Virus record (IMG/VR): IMGVR_UViG_3300042522_001134
Span: 1 to 21,743 of that record
Direction: 5' to 3' (one strand)
DNA: 21,743 bases
DNA from: a virus
Made by a program: the position numbers and the translations under genes
The notes under the pieces: generated by a model
Told to the model about the DNA's origin: nothing
The model's input: the letters and a program-made list of their open reading frames with translations, nothing else
Database searches by the model: none
Shown: positions 242-8,709 of the stretch, in pieces
Layout of the letters: every line of letters begins with the position of its first letter
How positions within the stretch are numbered: the stretch's first letter is position 1

Positions 242-2683
242 ATGTCTCAAAGTAAGACGCAGGATCTGCTGGCTTTTGTGCGCCAGCTGCCTGTGGGATT
301 TGCTTACGCGCCGATCTATGCCAAGGGTCTGGCGATCCAGTCCGGGAAAATCTCCAAGGGCAAGACACCGCTAGAGCGCAGCCACCATCAGGTGATGGCG
401 CCCTCTGATGTTGTACTTCAGATCGAGCGGAAGCCGGATGTGTTCCAGGCGGTCGGTGTGTTCACCGGCGGTCGCAGCATGGGACTCGTGATTCTCGATG
501 TGGATCGCAATCTCAGCCGTCTCAAGAAAAAGTGGGGCGAGTCGCTGGAGGGTGCTCCAGTCATCACGTCGACCAAGGCGAACGCGGCGAAGTACCTCTT
601 TCGCGTTCCTGAGGCCCTGTGGGGCTCGGTGAAGGGTTTTGGCCTGTCAGATACCGGAGCGGGCTACGAGGTGCTCTGGGGCCGTCAGGGCGTCATCTAC
701 GGGGCTTATCCGGGCTCCAGTGATGGAAAGGCACCGGAAGGTCATTACGGCTTTGAAGGCGACCTGGAGGCGATTCCAGACGCCCCTGAGTGGTTGCTCG
801 CAGAGATGCGGGATCACGCCGGGAAGGAGATCCAGGACGGCGGGTTTATCCGCAACCGCAAGGCGCTGGATTTTTCTGATCGTGATCCAGCTGAAGTGGC
901 TGAAATTGTGCAGTCCGCACTCAAGGTGATTCCGGGGCAGGGCAATGGCAGCCGGGATCACTGGGTCAAGGTGGGCATGGCGATCCACTCGGAGTTGCCT
1001 ACTGAGCTTGGCCTCACCCTCTGGTCCGCGTGGTCTGCGGAAGATCCGGAGTTTTCCCACGAGTGGGCAGATGGCAATCCCTGCGAGGACGTTTGGAAGT
1101 CCTTTCGCAAAGGGCCGGTCAGCCTCGGCACTCTTTTTTGGATGGCCGATCAGCAGATGCCGGGTCGGCTATGGCTTGCGGAAGATCTGCGGAAAGTTGT
1201 TGCAGAAGCTGAGGGCGACAATGTCACCCGCATCCGGCAAGTAACCCTCAGTTACGCCGAAGTCATCAGCCGCGCCAAGGAAATTCAGGAGCTGGATAAC
1301 CCGGCTGAGATGGCGCACCGCATGAATGCTCTGGCGCTTGAAGCTGGTTACAGGGATGCGGGGGCTCTGGAACGGCTGCTAATCAGCCAGATCCAGTACG
1401 AACAGCGCGACGACGATATGGATATCGGCGCTCTGCTCGATAAGGAGGTCACGCTGGATTACCTGATTCCTGACCTGCTGCCGAAACCTGGTGTCGTGAT
1501 GATTCACGGCGCTGGTGGTGATGGCAAGTCCATGACTGCCTGGACACTCGCCAAACACGTTGCTAGAGGCATCCCCTTTTCCATTAGGGGCGCTGATGTT
1601 CCAGTGAAGCAGGGAAAAGTCCTGATCCTCAACGGCGATCAGTCCGAGGTGCAGGTCAAGCAGCAGATGCAGGACCTGGAACTCGGTCATAACGATCCAA
1701 TCCGCGTTGTGATGGGCTGGGACCTGAACTGGTACTTGCGCTTCGTCAAGCTTGTTGAGAAGCACCAGCCAGCCCTCGTGATCATCGATTCGATCACCGG
1801 CTGCAGCAGGGGCTCAGCGTTCGACGAAAACCGTAAGGAGTTCGCCGGCCCGCTCTATTGGCTCGCCAATAACAACGGACGCCTCTTCCCGCCCTGCACG
1901 ATCCTCGTCGTGCACCACAGCAACAAGTCCGGCGGGTTCCGGGGCACCACAGCCCTCAGGGACGCCGTAGACGAGGTCTGGAGCCTCCGTAAGCCCTCCG
2001 ATAAGGAGATGGAGCGTGTGGGCTTCTCCAGCCGCCTCATCACCGTGGAGAAGAGCCGCGCAGGCCGTGGTGGCAGCAAGCTCCTGCTGAAAATGCTCGA
2101 AGACCTCACCTTCGAGCTGAAGGACTACGTCGAGATCACCGCGGAAAGCGCCACACCCGCCTCGATCATTGATCGGGTGCTCCAGCGCCTTCGCTCTGCC
2201 GCTAAAGCCGGCGAAGGGCGCACCAGGCAGGAGCTGGATTCCGATCCGCTTTGTGGTGGCAGCGTCAAGGGAATCAAAAAGGCGCTCCAGCGCCTGGAAG
2301 CCCGCGGTTTGATTTCTAGTACAGAAGAACCGAGCACCAGAAGGGCTGGTTCCAGCGTGAAGAGATACTTCGCTCTGGTCTCGCGTGATATGTGTGAGAG
2401 AGAGTGTCCCCCTATAGCTAATTCCAGTGCTGGACTGGAAAAATTAGGGGGACAAGGGGTAGAGGTGTCCCCCTTAATTTCGGAGGTGTCCCCCATGGCT
2501 GGAGCTGGGGCTGGCGAATCCGCAGATTTAGGGGGACACGAAAATGGTTGTCCCCCTGAGACCACCTGTTCTGATGCGGGTTTTGCTCAGGGGGACACAT
2601 TTTTTGTAACCCCCCAAGAGGAGTCACGCTCTCCGGAGGAGCTTGACGCCATGCTCGATGCCGCCTCTAAGATGTGGGACTGA
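242..2683 (+). CDS. Bifunctional primase-helicase (prim-pol plus RepA-like AAA ATPase)
   Basis: This 813-residue protein probably synthesises primers and unwinds DNA at the phage origin. Residues 1 to about 190 look like a prim-pol (archaeo-eukaryotic-type primase) domain with an acidic pair in LDVDRN (D86, D88). Residues about 220-298 match a PriCT-2 type primase C-terminal domain. Residues about 405-600 form a RepA/RecA-like ATPase with Walker A GAGGDGKS (423-430), Walker B LVIIDS (D516) and a VVHHSNK segment. Residues about 639-712 resemble a winged helix. The tail after residue 720 is low-complexity and is encoded by a repeat array. The stop overlaps the next ATG (TGATG). The start ATG follows a short leader without a clear Shine-Dalgarno sequence. 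The functional class is well supported by motifs; the exact domain families are from memory. Confidence 0.88.
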   Translation: MSQSKTQDLLAFVRQLPVGFAYAPIYAKGLAIQSGKISKGKTPLERSHHQVMAPSDVVLQIERKPDVFQAVGVFTGGRSMGLVILDVDRNLSRLKKKWGESLEGAPVITSTKANAAKYLFRVPEALWGSVKGFGLSDTGAGYEVLWGRQGVIYGAYPGSSDGKAPEGHYGFEGDLEAIPDAPEWLLAEMRDHAGKEIQDGGFIRNRKALDFSDRDPAEVAEIVQSALKVIPGQGNGSRDHWVKVGMAIHSELPTELGLTLWSAWSAEDPEFSHEWADGNPCEDVWKSFRKGPVSLGTLFWMADQQMPGRLWLAEDLRKVVAEAEGDNVTRIRQVTLSYAEVISRAKEIQELDNPAEMAHRMNALALEAGYRDAGALERLLISQIQYEQRDDDMDIGALLDKEVTLDYLIPDLLPKPGVVMIHGAGGDGKSMTAWTLAKHVARGIPFSIRGADVPVKQGKVLILNGDQSEVQVKQQMQDLELGHNDPIRVVMGWDLNWYLRFVKLVEKHQPALVIIDSITGCSRGSAFDENRKEFAGPLYWLANNNGRLFPPCTILVVHHSNKSGGFRGTTALRDAVDEVWSLRKPSDKEMERVGFSSRLITVEKSRAGRGGSKLLLKMLEDLTFELKDYVEITAESATPASIIDRVLQRLRSAAKAGEGRTRQELDSDPLCGGSVKGIKKALQRLEARGLISSTEEPSTRRAGSSVKRYFALVSRDMCERECPPIANSSAGLEKLGGQGVEVSPLISEVSPMAGAGAGESADLGGHENGCPPETTCSDAGFAQGDTFFVTPQEESRSPEELDAMLDAASKMWD
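2404..2598. repeat. Iteron-like array of seven GTGTCCCCCT repeats, candidate replication origin
   Basis: Seven near-identical 9-10 bp units lie inside the 3' end of the primase-helicase gene. Plus-strand copies are at 2404-2413, 2465-2474, 2486-2495 and 2548-2557. Inverted copies (AGGGGGACA or AGGGGGACAC) are at 2446-2454, 2530-2539 and 2589-2598. Successive centres are about 42, 19, 21, 44, 18 and 41 bp apart, close to multiples of two helical turns. The units are read in different codon frames (ECPP, VSPL, LGGH, QGDT), so selection appears to act on DNA or RNA rather than protein. The last two form a 12 bp inverted repeat (TGTCCCCCTGAG and CTCAGGGGGACA), followed by TTTTTT. I saw no other copies in the window. 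Confidence 0.85.
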
Positions 2684-4630: not shown

Positions 4631-5032
4631 ATGAACATGTACATCCTTTCCGAAGCCCAGTTCGATCAAATCAACAAAGCGCTTGAAGCTGCTCGCTTTG
4701 CTGTTGAAACCTGCCAGCACGTCTCCCTGGATCTGACTGATCCCAGCAAGACAGTGGCACTGCCTAAACTCGCCAAAGCTCCAGCTGCTAAAAAAGCGGA
4801 GTCTCAAGTCAAGACTCGTAAGACCAGCCGCAAGGGTCGGCGTGGTGTTTCTGTGCTGACTGATAGCAAGGTGATGGAGATCAAGCGCCAGCTGGCTGCC
4901 GGCGGTAAATCGGTGGGCAAGATCGCTAAGGAGTTTGGCGTTCACCCCACCACCATCAACTGCATCAAGTGGAATAAGACCTGGAAGCACATCCAGCTCC
5001 AGCAGTCCACTCCCGTTGTGGTGGTTGACTGA
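4631..5032 (+). CDS. Small helix-turn-helix DNA-binding protein
   Basis: This 133-residue protein has an N-terminal helical part (residues 1 to about 45), a basic Lys/Arg/Ala linker (residues about 48-75) and a C-terminal homeodomain-like helix-turn-helix (residues about 78-120). In the last part VMEIKRQLAAGGKSVGKIA is followed by KEFGVHPTTINCIKWNKTWK. The pattern of a GKSVGKIAKEFGV turn and a TTINCIK recognition helix is the Hin/resolvase-like type found in small phage regulators and in HNH companion domains. It likely binds DNA in the cytoplasm as a regulator. Its stop overlaps the dCTP deaminase ATG (TGATG), so they are co-translated. The target is unknown. Confidence 0.75.
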   Translation: MNMYILSEAQFDQINKALEAARFAVETCQHVSLDLTDPSKTVALPKLAKAPAAKKAESQVKTRKTSRKGRRGVSVLTDSKVMEIKRQLAAGGKSVGKIAKEFGVHPTTINCIKWNKTWKHIQLQQSTPVVVVD

Positions 5033-5547
5033 TGGGCGGTGTGCTCTGTGATCACGAGATTCATAACCTGGCGCGGCGAGGCTTGGTCTCTCCGTTTCAT
5101 CAGGAGCTGATTAACCCAGCCAGTCTCGATGTGAGACTCGGTGAGAATCTGCTGGTGGAGTTGCCCACAACAACTTCACTGATGCCGTTCTCGATTGCTG
5201 GGCACACGCAGGAAAAGCCGTTCATGCTCCAGCCGCATGAGTTCGTGCTTGCCGAAACGATGGAGGAGTTCAAGCTGCCTGACTGTGTTGCTGGGCAGCT
5301 TGCTCTCAAGTCGTCTCGTGCCAGGGAAGGGATTGAGCATCTTCTGGCCGGGTATATCGATCCCGGTTATGAGGGGCGCTTAACGCTCGAACTGCAAAAC
5401 GCTAGGTGTATGCATCCCGTGCCGTTGTGGCCCGGAATGCGCATCGCACAGATTGTGTTCCACAAAATGTCGATGCTGCCTGGCAAAAGTTACGCGCTTA
5501 CTGGGCGCTATCAAGGCGACACTGCTGTTCAGGGTTCCAGAGGATGA
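5032..5547 (+). CDS. dcd: dCTP deaminase
   Basis: The 171-residue protein converts dCTP to dUTP in the cytoplasm, feeding dTMP synthesis for phage DNA. The family signature is intact: LKSSRAREG gives S94 and R98, matching E. coli S111 and R115. IDPGYEG (109-115) and LTLELQN supply E120, matching catalytic E138. WPGMRIAQIVF (133-143) is the usual core strand, and YALTGRYQGDTAV resembles the nucleotide-closing tail. Length is slightly short of the roughly 190-residue family norm. A bifunctional deaminase/dUTPase is possible and cannot be excluded by eye. The gene is coupled to the HTH gene before it and, through ATGA, to the DUF3310 gene after it. Confidence 0.92.
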   Translation: MGGVLCDHEIHNLARRGLVSPFHQELINPASLDVRLGENLLVELPTTTSLMPFSIAGHTQEKPFMLQPHEFVLAETMEEFKLPDCVAGQLALKSSRAREGIEHLLAGYIDPGYEGRLTLELQNARCMHPVPLWPGMRIAQIVFHKMSMLPGKSYALTGRYQGDTAVQGSRG

Positions 5548-5783
5548 GCGATTCAGTTGAGCATCCCCGGCATTACACAGCTGGGAAAGTTGAGGTCATC
5601 GAGGTTCTGGAAGATTGGGTGCAGCACGCGCCAGATGCGCGGGTTGGTGCGCTCCAGTGGCAGTGCCTCAAATACCTCAGCCGGATGTGGCTGAAAAAGG
5701 ATCCTCTGGAAGATGCGATGAAATGTCGCTGGTATTTGAACAGGCTAATTAACACTTTGGCGACGGAGCCTTACCAAGACTGA
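5544..5783 (+). CDS. DUF3310 family protein (nucleotide-kinase-like annotation)
   Basis: The start is ATG 5544, sharing ATGA with the dCTP deaminase stop, and gives 79 residues. A longer frame reaching back to 5406 lies inside the deaminase gene and is rejected. The protein has the short DUF3310 pattern seen in many phages: VEHPRHYTAGKVEVIEVLED near the N-terminus, FxxxCxKYLxR-like LQWQCLKYLSRMWLKKD, and a helical end with KCRWYLNRLI. Members are often annotated as nucleotide kinases, but a biochemical function is not established to my knowledge. Its pairing with a deaminase fits a role in nucleotide supply. Confidence 0.88.
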   Translation: MSDSVEHPRHYTAGKVEVIEVLEDWVQHAPDARVGALQWQCLKYLSRMWLKKDPLEDAMKCRWYLNRLINTLATEPYQD

Positions 5784-5947
5784 TGAGGTATTGGTGGCGG
5801 ATTGTCGCCAAGGCATTAGGTGAGAAGGCGCACCAGCACAATCGGGTCGCTGATCAGGTTGCGATGGTGCGTTTTTGCATCTTGTTGGCTTACATGACAA
5901 CTAACTTTTTCATTTGCGCAGGAGTTATCAGGCACTGGAATGGCTAA
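5783..5947 (+). CDS. Small membrane protein, 54 residues
   Basis: ATG 5783 shares its A with the DUF3310 stop (TGATG), and the frame ends at TAA 5945-5947, overlapping the next gene by 8 bp. The sequence begins MRYWWRIVAKALGEKAHQHN and then has a hydrophobic stretch at residues about 29-50 (VRFCILLAYMTTNFFICAGV), ending IRHWNG. This is one transmembrane segment with a basic, amphipathic N-terminal helix. The layout and the tight overlaps on both sides make it a real gene despite its length. I recall similar short proteins in phage genomes, without known function. Confidence 0.8.
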   Translation: MRYWWRIVAKALGEKAHQHNRVADQVAMVRFCILLAYMTTNFFICAGVIRHWNG

Positions 5948-6407
5948 CAATTGCACTCACAGTTTTAGAAGAATCACGAACATCCACCAATGGAAACACA
6001 AACCACATCTGTGCACGTACAGGTTCAAGTGCAAGTACTGCGGGCATTGCTGGAATGTTTACTTTGATCGGGTTGCCAAAAAAGAGGTGCAACTGTCGCC
6101 GCGAGAGTTCCCTAATAATCAGCGCAGGATGACACCAAAAGAGGTGAAGAGGATCCTGGAGGATTGGCGGTTTGATGACACCTTGGCTAAAGCTTTAGGT
6201 ATCTCGATCCATACCGTTCAGTCGATTCGTACAGGTCGCACGTACAAGGAGTTATTTCCTGAGATTCCGCGTCGACGTGCAATGCAGAAAAAACAGGAGG
6301 GCAATGGTTGTACCAGCTGTAAGCACTGGCACGACTACTGCGATTTGGGTATTCCTGAGGCCGGAGAGGCTGGATTTTTTAAGGAGTGTTCTTGTTTTTC
6401 TGAGTAA
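5940..6407 (+). CDS. Zinc-ribbon and helix-turn-helix protein with Cys-rich C-terminus
   Basis: The 155-residue protein has three parts. Residues about 5-45 hold a zinc ribbon (CTHSF, then HLCTYRFKCKYCGHCW). Residues about 64-108 form a helix-turn-helix (MTPKEVKRILEDWRFDD, then LAKALGISIHTVQSIRTGRT). Residues about 124-153 hold a Cys cluster (CTSCKHWHDYCDLGIPEAG, then KECSC). It likely binds DNA as a regulator. The last Cys block, CxxCxHW-x-C-LGxPEaG, is closely matched by the frame at 6678-6860. The ATG at 5940 overlaps the preceding membrane-protein gene by 8 bp, and a GGAG sits about 15 bp upstream. The stop overlaps the next ATG (TAATG). Confidence 0.75.
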   Translation: MANNCTHSFRRITNIHQWKHKPHLCTYRFKCKYCGHCWNVYFDRVAKKEVQLSPREFPNNQRRMTPKEVKRILEDWRFDDTLAKALGISIHTVQSIRTGRTYKELFPEIPRRRAMQKKQEGNGCTSCKHWHDYCDLGIPEAGEAGFFKECSCFSE

Positions 6408-6691
6408 TGGCAGTTTCAATCAACAGCAGGCCGTGCCAAGCGTGCGGTAAAGCAACAACCAATTCAGTTTTGTGTATGCGCTGCTATCGCTGCAGTCCTG
6501 CCGGCAAACAGGAAGAACACATGCAGCGAGTGCGCCAGAACTACAAGCCCCAGGAAGATGGTGGGCTGGTCTGGAATGTTCAGCGGAGGCTTGGAGTACC
6601 TCAACAAACGTCCGCTGGGAAGAGTGACCCCCCTGTTTGGGCATGCCGGAGACCGGCAGAGGCCTGGGGGGTGTTGATGCTGGAAAGGTAG
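6407..6691 (+). CDS. Small zinc-finger protein, 94 residues, C-terminal half doubtful
   Basis: ATG 6407 overlaps the previous TAA (TAATG). The first 45 residues look genuine: SRPCQACGKATTNSVLCMRC is a two-CxxC zinc finger, followed by a charged helix. From about residue 55 onward (VWNVQRRLGVPQQTSAGK and beyond) the composition is less natural, and another frame also looks protein-like: MFSGGLEYLNKRPLG from ATG 6577 to a TGA at 6675-6677. The frame at 6678-6860 downstream encodes a convincing Cys-rich domain without a start. A frameshift, real or a sequence error, may therefore have split one longer protein of about 150 residues. Confidence 0.6.
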   Translation: MAVSINSRPCQACGKATTNSVLCMRCYRCSPAGKQEEHMQRVRQNYKPQEDGGLVWNVQRRLGVPQQTSAGKSDPPVWACRRPAEAWGVLMLER

Positions 6692-6860
6692 CAGGCGGAT
6701 CAACCGTCGCGAGGTCGGCTCAGCAAAACCGCGGCAGCCGAAAGCGTGCAGGCACTGCATCCACTGGAATCGGCGGTGTCTACTCGGGTTTCCCGAGGGT
6801 GGGACACTCGCGGCAGCAGTGCTGTGCTCCGCCAGGGAGGTTGACAGCCTGCTAGAGTAG
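6678..6860 (+). pseudogene. Cys-rich zinc-binding domain in an open frame without a standard start
   Basis: This frame follows a TGA at 6675-6677 and ends at TAG 6858-6860. It reads RRINRREVGSAKPRQPKACR and then HCIHWNRRCLLGFPEGGTLA, with a final LCSAREVDSLLE. The CxxCxHW..RC.LGFPEGG pattern closely matches the C-terminus of the protein at 5940-6407, so it is almost certainly coding. No ATG, GTG or TTG occurs in frame before it. ATC 6699 is the only near-cognate start. ATG 6677 or the gene at 6407 would reach it after a +1 shift, for example at AGG-TAG near 6688. It may be a frameshifted gene, a sequence error or a non-AUG start. Confidence 0.65.
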
Positions 6861-6877
6861 TAGGGTAAACGCCCTAC
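6860..6877 (+). promoter_or_regulatory. Perfect hairpin just before the DNA polymerase start
   Basis: GTAGGG (6860-6865) and CCCTAC (6872-6877) form a 6 bp perfect stem with a TAAACG loop, ending five bases before ATG 6883. No Shine-Dalgarno sequence is present, and the hairpin occupies the place where one would be. TGCTAGAGT (6850-6858) just upstream fits an extended -10 pattern, and TTGACA occurs at 6841 but too close to pair with it. The hairpin could be a translational operator or a DNA-binding site. Confidence 0.4.
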
Positions 6878-6882
6878 CAGGC

Positions 6883-8709
6883 ATGGACATTCTTCAAGGC
6901 ATCGAGCACCTGCACACGCTCGATGATGCAAGCTTCGTTGCGTTCGACGTTGAGACCACTGGACTTCAGCCGAAGTTTGGTGGTCTTCGCTTGTTACAGC
7001 TGGCCACATTCGGCAAAAAGCCGGTTGTGATGGATTGCTGGAGCTTTAGCGATGACGACTGGATCACGCTGGAAGAGTTTTGCGATGTACCACGCACCTG
7101 GCTTGCCCACAATGCAGTGTTCGACTTGGGCTGGCTTCAGGAGCACGAGATCTACCCCAGCGGCAAGGTTTATTGCTCCATGCTGGCTAGCCGGATCCTG
7201 ACGAATGGGCTGCCCAATCTGAAGCACGGTCTCCAGCACGTTGTCCATCGCTACCTCAAGCTGGATATTTCCAAGGAAGAGCAGCGGAGCGATTGGTCGG
7301 GCGATTTGCGCGTGGAGCAGATCGAATACGCCGCCAAAGATGTGGTGGTGTTGACCCAGCTGTGGCAGCCGATCACAGAAAGGATGGCTACCGGAACTTT
7401 GATGCCAGCCTGGGATCTTGAGTGCAAAGCTCTGCCCGCAATGGCGCAACTCTGGCGTACGGGCTTGCCTTTCAATAAAAAGATGCTGGAGCAGCTGATC
7501 GAAGATTTGGATATTGAAAATGTTGAGGTAGGCGAGAAATTTATTGAGGATTTTGATGAGGCCTTACCTTCAGAACACAAGCTGCATCGCGGTCTTGATG
7601 GGAAGTTGTTGTACCAGACAAAACCTGGGCCGAAAGGCAAAAAAGTAGATCCTGATGTGTTTAACCTCAATAGTCCTGCACAGCTACTTAAAAAGTTCAC
7701 CGCTTTGCTGGGTCAGCCGCCAATGGATATGAAGAATGACAAGCCGAGTGCGAGTAGGTCTGCGCTCCAGGAATATGTAGGTGATCACAAAGTTGTTGCA
7801 GATTATTTGCGGTGGAAAAAAGTAGAAAAGCGTAGGCAGATGGCGGAAACTTTGCTTAAAAATTATTCGGCTGATGGTTTTATTCGTGCCAGTTATATGC
7901 AGCTTGGTGCGGATACAGGCCGCATGTCTTGTATTGCGCCAAACCTGCAGCAGATTCCGCGTGATCCGCGCTTTAGGTTGGCAGTCGAAGCTCCAGAAGG
8001 GTGGCGATTGGTTGTAGCGGATTACGGGCAGATGGAGCTGCGACTTGCAGCGGCAGAAGCACAGGATCCCTTAATGACCGAGGTGTTCCAGCAGGGGTTG
8101 GACCTTCATACGATGACGGCGACGCAGATTTATGGGGTTGAGCCGGATGAAGTTACAAAAGAGCAAAGGCAAATTAGTAAATCAGCTAACTTCGGTTTGT
8201 TATATGGAAGCGGTGCAAAAGGACTCAGAAACTATGCAGCAGCGACCGGAATCCAGATGGATCTTGATGAGGCGGCGGAAGTCCGGCAAAAGTTCCACGC
8301 TGCATATAAAGGCATCTCCGACTGGCAGCAGCAGAATGCTCGCGCTGCTGATGCGGCTACGGACAATCCATCTATCCGCATACGCATCTCGAACCTGCGG
8401 CGGTTTTTACCGGGTGAGCACAACAAGCTCACTACCCGTTGCAACACCCCAATCCAAGGCGCCGGTGCAGCAGTCCTCAAACTTACGCTCGGCAAGCTGT
8501 GGCCGTTACTTCACGCCGACGGGGAGGACGTGGTGCGTCTGGCCGGCGTGGTGCACGATGAAATCATCCTGCTCGTAAGGGAAGAACACGCCGAAACTTG
8601 GGCGATTCAGCTCCAGCAAATCATGGAAGAAGCTGAAGCTAAGTGGTTGGGTGATATTCCCCCACTTGCCGAAGCTAAGGTCGGGAAGAGCTGGCAAGAG
8701 GCCAAGTGA
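6883..8709 (+). CDS. polA: DNA polymerase I (family A) with 3'-5' exonuclease
   Basis: The 608-residue enzyme replicates the phage genome. Residues 1 to about 175 are a DnaQ/RNase D-type proofreading exonuclease: Exo I FDVETTGL (D22, E24), Exo II AHNAVFDLGWL (D81) and Exo III EYAAKDVVVL (Y149, D153). The polymerase domain has motif A VVADYGQMELR (D380), motif B RQISKSANFGLLYG (R429, K433, F437, Y441) and motif C VVHDE (H558, D559, E560). F437 occupies the position of E. coli Phe762. A 5'-3' exonuclease domain is absent, as is usual in phage enzymes. The stop shares GTGA with a small gene after it. No Shine-Dalgarno sequence precedes ATG 6883. Confidence 0.95.
   Translation: MDILQGIEHLHTLDDASFVAFDVETTGLQPKFGGLRLLQLATFGKKPVVMDCWSFSDDDWITLEEFCDVPRTWLAHNAVFDLGWLQEHEIYPSGKVYCSMLASRILTNGLPNLKHGLQHVVHRYLKLDISKEEQRSDWSGDLRVEQIEYAAKDVVVLTQLWQPITERMATGTLMPAWDLECKALPAMAQLWRTGLPFNKKMLEQLIEDLDIENVEVGEKFIEDFDEALPSEHKLHRGLDGKLLYQTKPGPKGKKVDPDVFNLNSPAQLLKKFTALLGQPPMDMKNDKPSASRSALQEYVGDHKVVADYLRWKKVEKRRQMAETLLKNYSADGFIRASYMQLGADTGRMSCIAPNLQQIPRDPRFRLAVEAPEGWRLVVADYGQMELRLAAAEAQDPLMTEVFQQGLDLHTMTATQIYGVEPDEVTKEQRQISKSANFGLLYGSGAKGLRNYAAATGIQMDLDEAAEVRQKFHAAYKGISDWQQQNARAADAATDNPSIRIRISNLRRFLPGEHNKLTTRCNTPIQGAGAAVLKLTLGKLWPLLHADGEDVVRLAGVVHDEIILLVREEHAETWAIQLQQIMEEAEAKWLGDIPPLAEAKVGKSWQEAK

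Follow-up and report, generated by a model that had tools for sequence, protein, structure and literature searches.

An iteron-like array inside a viral primase-helicase gene, a likely replication origin, changes in step with the upstream-encoded winged helix

The 3′ part of a phage primase-helicase gene carries an array of short repeated words that is under selection at the DNA level and whose word switches as a set in each phage. We hold with good confidence that this array is a cis-acting site of replication initiation, most likely the phage origin, read by the winged helix that is encoded just upstream of it. The window, i.e. the whole stretch of DNA analysed, comprises 21,743 bp; the relatives with which it was compared are 213 unique complete genes obtained from scans of viral contigs.

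The gene encodes a protein of 813 aa, in which Pfam detected the domains PriCT_2 (aa 224–302) and a RecA-like AAA_25 (aa 395–564). PHROG matches of the protein were DNA primase, DNA polymerase/primase and primase-helicase. A conserved LDVD motif, taken together with PriCT_2, points to an archaeo-eukaryotic primase domain at the N-terminus. The structure prediction for the full-length protein was poor (mean pLDDT 47), and the winged-helix part alone was used. The AF2 model of this domain (mean pLDDT 81) exhibits an H-H-H-E-E layout with predicted helices at residues 639–655, 662–667 and 675–687 and strands at residues 691–697 and 705–711. Many winged-helix proteins of the MarR, PadR and TFE types were among its PDB matches, with modest scores. 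Model and matches confirm a suggestion of the first-pass annotation, which had placed a winged-helix-like domain directly 5′ of the array in the same protein. The features of the gene are as follows:

242–2683, + strand: primase-helicase gene, 813 aa, with the array in the linker after the C-terminal winged helix (ORF, Pfam, PHROG)
2156–2377, + strand: winged-helix domain, aa 639–712, the presumed reader of the array (AF2 model, PDB matches, covariation)
2264–2302, + strand: recognition helix, aa 675–687, with the K679 codon at 2276–2278 (structure model, covariation)
2333–2353, + strand: wing, aa 698–704 (structure model, covariation)
2633–2677, + strand: short C-terminal helix, aa 798–812, after a disordered linker, with ordinary codon use (structure model, codon-bias map)

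The C-terminal helix is encoded 3′ of the array-coding linker, contains a conserved EEL...A..W and may be a protein-interaction tail; the DNA-constrained element stops 5′ of it. Further along the window (4631–8709), genes for helix-turn-helix/HNH-like and dCTP deaminase-like proteins and for a family A DNA polymerase with an exonuclease domain would fit a replication module.

Exact TGTCCCCC/GGGGGACA words occur seven times in the window compared with 0.56 expected, a number that was reached in none of 100 shuffles, and all seven are confined to 193 bp (2405–2597). The count of four forward words (2405, 2466, 2487 and 2549) and three inverted words (2447, 2531 and 2590) agrees with the one originally given. 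Start-to-start steps between successive words are 42, 19, 21, 44, 18 and 41 bp, and the spacing of about 21 or 42 bp stated before is correct to within 3 bp. The array thus consists of multiple short sites in a compact region with helical-turn spacing, as in an iteron-type cluster. Translation of the ORF also bore out that the words are read in several codon frames and yield unlike peptides (ECPP, LGGQ, VSPL, VSPM, LGGH, GCPP and QGDT). The sites and the elements around them are:

2378–2617, no strand: DNA-constrained element, putative origin, with codon bias through sites and spacers that eases after about residue 792 (codon-bias map)
2380–2385, + strand: CTCGCG, left boundary word (aligned sequences)
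2405–2414, + strand: site A, TGTCCCCCTA (this and all other sites: word search and aligned relatives)
2424–2438, no strand: CCAGT-GCTGG-ACTGG dyad in the A–B spacer (aligned sequences, codon bias, pairing analysis)
2445–2454, − strand: site B
2466–2475, + strand: site C
2487–2496, + strand: site C′, an additional central site, optional among relatives
2529–2538, − strand: site D
2549–2558, + strand: site E
2588–2597, − strand: site F

Alignment of relatives had been proposed as a check, and it showed that the repeats persist while the peptide changes. The tail after the winged helix contains on average 7.1 TGTCC words per gene, and at least four are present in 204 of the 213 genes. Place, orientation and helical spacing of the sites are stable across the 213 relatives; the word differs. 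The canonical layout in the relatives is A> <B C> ... <D E> <F, i.e. six sites arranged as two mirror-image triplets, with a centre of variable length between the triplets that may hold up to two additional sites. Among 117 representatives, the spacing of neighbours in the same orientation peaks at 10–11 bp, and convergent pairs are mainly about 50 bp apart, with minor peaks at about 29, 39–40 and 59 bp. In some groups of relatives, the canonical layout is replaced by 10-bp iterons in tandem (TGTCCGTTTT and the inverse of this word). The array is retained within the gene even in two distant relatives (L570 and L636, with 37% and 31% identity, respectively). A search of bacterial genomes for relatives yielded one locus, from a proteobacterial MAG.

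The word TGTCCCCC is common to the window and its nearest relatives. Elsewhere among the relatives we found TGTCCCACTG, TGTCCCACC, TGTCCAACTG, TGTCCAGCTG, TGTCCCATTG, TGTCCGTTTT, TGTCCACC, TGTCCTCTTTT and others. The TGTCC core is near-constant, and the next 5–6 bp are uniform inside one array and differ between phages. For 86 clusters, identity of the three bases 3′ of TGTCC was 0.68 within arrays compared with 0.35 (sd 0.007) when words were shuffled among genomes; array specificity covers approximately 5–6 bases on the 3′ side of TGTCC and none on the 5′ side. The 9–10 bp block described in the first-pass annotation is a real repeat, but the site is asymmetric, being composed of TGTCC and the array-specific 3′ bases with an unspecific 5′ side.

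Codon usage in this region is exceptional. In the relatives, Cys722 is encoded by TGT in 81 of 81 cases and Cys770 in 93 of 93, whereas 39% of all Cys codons in the gene body are TGT. For Gly737 the codon is GGA in 75 of 76 cases (7% in the gene body), and for Ser743 it is TCC in 83 of 87 (20% in the gene body). According to the codon-bias map, sites and spacers alike are strongly biased between about residues 713 and 792, and codon use is ordinary beyond. As codon choice is constrained over nucleotides 2378 to 2617 or so and then relaxed, selection acts on the DNA. This agrees, as do the words shared within arrays, with the previous view that the sequence is kept for its DNA. The extent of 2404–2598 proposed at that time encloses all of the words, but the constraint on the DNA reaches wider. 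The array hence lies inside the coding sequence of the protein that would bind it, binding being deduced from the covariation described below, and its DNA is what is kept. Several sites of the tail encode conserved CP and GQ residues, and it might be argued that these peptide motifs, or chance, simply yield similar DNA. We give this practically no credence, since one and the same word is read from either strand and in more than one frame to give unlike peptides, the codon extremes coincide exactly with the sites, and the words switch together; codon bias and frame usage rule out an explanation at the peptide level.

For a detailed characterization of the relationship between word and protein, word similarity was compared with the identity of each protein segment in the 117 representatives, with the effect of overall identity removed. 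In close pairs, three segments covering residues 660–719 gave partial r values of 0.43–0.58, and every other segment reached 0.24 at most. Column by column, the strongest signals came from S704 (wing) and K679 (recognition helix); of the 30 highest-ranking columns, 22 fall within residues 655–722. The partial r was 0.72 for residues 674–708, 0.26 for the synonymous third bases of the same region and 0.06 for the 300 nt downstream of the gene. Physical linkage alone is therefore insufficient to account for the covariation and was rejected as its cause.

Residue 679 was examined further in 58 disjoint nearest pairs, a method that does not fully remove phylogeny from the covariation. Pairs with the same residue had the same word in 35 of 35 cases, and pairs with different residues had different words in 16 of 23 (p = 3 × 10−9, best of 440 columns); S704 was the second-best residue. 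By parsimony, the word changes at least 42 times on the tree of 117 phages, and residue 679 changes on 17 word-change branches compared with six expected (p = 1.7 × 10−6). Recombination that moves winged helix and array together as a block could contribute to the covariation (synonymous partial r 0.26). In the pairs L017/L034, L027/L051 and L035/L048, the protein body is 96% identical and both winged helices and words are different, which suggests that the 3′ part of the gene has been exchanged as a unit.

The first variable bases follow residue 679 in a recognizable, though incomplete, code: K occurs mostly with CC, R mostly with CA, G mostly with T, Q with A followed mostly by C or G, and T or H with A followed mostly by G; R679 was found also with GT and GG words. 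Residues K680 and R684 of the recognition helix are invariant in 117 of 117 representatives. Because the word tracks residue 679 and the wing, the gene's own product very probably binds the array through its winged helix. Binding by the product had been proposed before, and the covariation that it predicts, between the word and the winged helix of the same protein, was found in the sequences.

Replication origin is the simplest function for a cis site that is read by the phage's own primase-helicase, and by analogy with P4 alpha, SaPI Rep, lambda O and SPP1 gp38 an origin function of the array is likely. In the proposed mechanism, K680, R684 and similar invariant residues would make contacts to the constant TGTCC, and the variable 3′ part of the site would be read by K679 and the wing. 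Several copies of the protein would occupy both mirror-image modules of three sites, and two helicase rings would be placed on these triplets in opposite orientation. The AAA_25 motor would then open the DNA, and the N-terminal primase would prime. Lock and key are adjacent in one gene and so may mutate or move together, and such joint mutation or transfer would allow origin specificity to shift with the rest of the protein nearly unchanged.

Other functions of a bound array have to be weighed against this. Cumulative GC skew was monotonic in seven large related records and did not turn at the array, where the first-pass annotation had proposed to look for an inflection. Furthermore, an AT-rich unwinding element was found neither in nor beside the array, whose spacers have 45% AT compared with 42% in the gene body; for this reason we describe the array as origin-like and do not class it as a proven iteron origin. 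Both results would suit a replication-control site comparable to P4 crr or to the incompatibility iterons of plasmids; the same winged helix would bind it, and replication would start elsewhere. The binding evidence would be shared by this explanation. P4, however, possesses both ori and crr, whereas in the large records tested the word forms no cluster other than the array, and we regard a control site as unlikely. MarR- and PadR-type winged helices are often transcription regulators, so that an operator array for autoregulation by the winged helix, or else a partition or centromere-like site, could also be considered. Yet the sites are located at the gene end, approximately 2.2 kb from the gene start, and partition genes were not recognized near the array. 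In three records of 42–43 kb from close CCC-word relatives, the word was found solely in the array, with no copies elsewhere in the genome, promoters included, which argues against a regulon; the regulon was rejected, and an operator or partition role is given little probability.

Nested mRNA hairpins that govern translation or stability had been named in the first-pass annotation as the other explanation. The 216-nt RNA of the region indeed folds far better than shuffles (z −7.6), and some A–B spacers contribute a further inner stem (mean z −1.4). A strong RNA fold is, however, expected of any array of this type, since inverted identical words force stems. In the L016 group, the sites hold their places despite poorly pairing words, and an RNA stem predicts neither the covariation with residue 679 nor the helical-turn spacing. 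A search of Rfam with the array region gave no family match. Hairpins are thus disfavoured and in our judgement quite improbable, and a site for replication initiation, most likely the origin, is the reading that we retain.

Sequences between and around the sites show some further regularities. The CCAGT...ACTGG dyad of the A–B spacer is present as CCCAGTCAGGGACTGG in many relatives and is strongly codon-biased, as is a CCCAGTGATACC...GGATCTG stretch in the E–F spacer; both are possible second binding sites or structures. Pairing of the CCAGT/ACTGG dyad as a hairpin was inconsistently kept in the aligned relatives. Some distant relatives have CTCGCG 5′ of site A and CGCGAG 3′ of site F, and the whole element therefore has a larger dyad symmetry in these cases; the window lacks the CGCGAG counterpart at the right end.

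A similar arrangement was found in the cultured Synechococcus phages S-CBS1 (gp41) and S-CBS3 (gp45, annotated as RepA-like helicase), in which a helicase of AAA_25 type is followed by a winged-helix-like C-terminal segment and then by in-gene repeats. The repeat words are TTTC[GT]CAC in seven copies (S-CBS1, L439:3894–4051) and TTTGTCAC in four copies (S-CBS3, L442, 3′ part of gp45). Compared with the window protein, these proteins are shorter (approximately 578 and 551 aa), have low identity and use other words. No published origin assignment for S-CBS1 or S-CBS3 was found in the literature searched, and both phages are usable as laboratory models. The distant AAA_25 genes of S-CBS4, SPI1 and PA-SR01 have no such array. 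In MW202742 (L441), CGCGGAAA occurs up to seven times at about 2450–2950, upstream of a short repA gene, and this cluster is possibly another origin array. Absence of the array in the former three and its upstream position in MW202742 limit the generality of the layout. Clusters of TGTCCCCC or TGTCCCAC were observed also in L495, L501, L444, L449, L462/L517, L534, L544, L563, L573, L598 and L638. The reading frames over these clusters are unrelated to the window primase; some clusters lie inside small replication-organiser-like ORFs and some outside long ones. TGTCCC arrays occur in unrelated viral contexts too, and phage origin sites may commonly share TGTCC as a core.

P4 ori and crr are located outside the alpha gene. 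For the reader domain, the winged helix of P4 alpha is a precedent (PMC4234260). The window protein likewise combines primase, helicase and winged helix in one chain, its primase catalytic domain being predicted from motifs, but P4 alpha has a Toprim-type primase, whereas PriCT_2 points to the archaeo-eukaryotic type. The window protein showed no Toprim or P4-family match in Pfam and no sequence match to P4 alpha; we therefore do not class it as a P4 alpha-like member, although its mode of action may be similar. In lambda, ori forms part of the O gene, with O and ori paired specifically in each phage (PMC4488673). Both systems thus have an iteron array in the initiator's own gene, bound in lambda, and very probably here, by its product. 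Lambda O, however, uses its N-terminal half for binding and is not a primase or a helicase; the reader here is the C-terminal winged helix of a primase-helicase. Lambda ori comprises four 19-bp iterons beside an A-T-rich segment, compared with asymmetric sites of about 10 bp in two mirror triplets and no AT-rich element found here. In SPP1, oriL is inside gene 38, and direct repeats are located in the gene of the binding protein gp38 (PMC6316719). In contrast to the present case, gp38 cooperates with a separate loader and helicase, and SPP1 has an additional origin, oriR; an AT-rich element is present in oriL as well as in oriR.

SaPI Rep is a helicase that recognizes its own iteron origin via a C-terminal domain, with two hexamers proposed (PMC7581432). 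The likeness to SaPI Rep/ori and SCCmec Cch2 is that a helicase reads its own iteron origin (PMC7581432), but in these elements the origin is just 3′ of the gene and not within it, the helicase is a different one and the SCCmec primase is a separate protein. For the PLE satellites of Vibrio cholerae, it has been tested experimentally that the DNA-binding domain of RepA and the iterons covary and were module-swapped several times (PMC8263062). The PLE origin is intergenic, with few variants and an unrelated initiator, compared with at least 42 word changes on the tree of 117 phages. A phage nuclease that imitates the PLE initiator cuts the PLE origins (PMC8263062). By comparison with these systems, the array appears to be a variant of the in-gene iteron origins; in-gene origins and origin-specific initiators are already known.

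A more far-reaching reading, which we put forward tentatively and at somewhat less than even probability, is that the 3′ end of the gene is a compact lock-and-key cassette of winged helix and origin array with which phages of near-identical replication proteins have repeatedly re-tuned origin specificity, perhaps under conflict, and that yields a natural protein–DNA code over about 40 word changes. Such conflict might come from satellites, from nucleases directed at origins, from superinfecting relatives or from decoy origins. The unusual interest of the system arises from the matched changes of site and reader being so numerous and clear: in many genomes of wild phages, the reading domain of an initiator and its putative origin have changed repeatedly and in matched fashion. 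This raises the question why origin specificity turns over fast, for which the PLE nuclease work offers one possible reason (PMC8263062). It also places the likely origin, without mapping, for a large group of environmental phages on which there is otherwise little work, links residues to bases in a winged-helix code that is open to testing, and predicts which co-infecting phages could have an origin in common.
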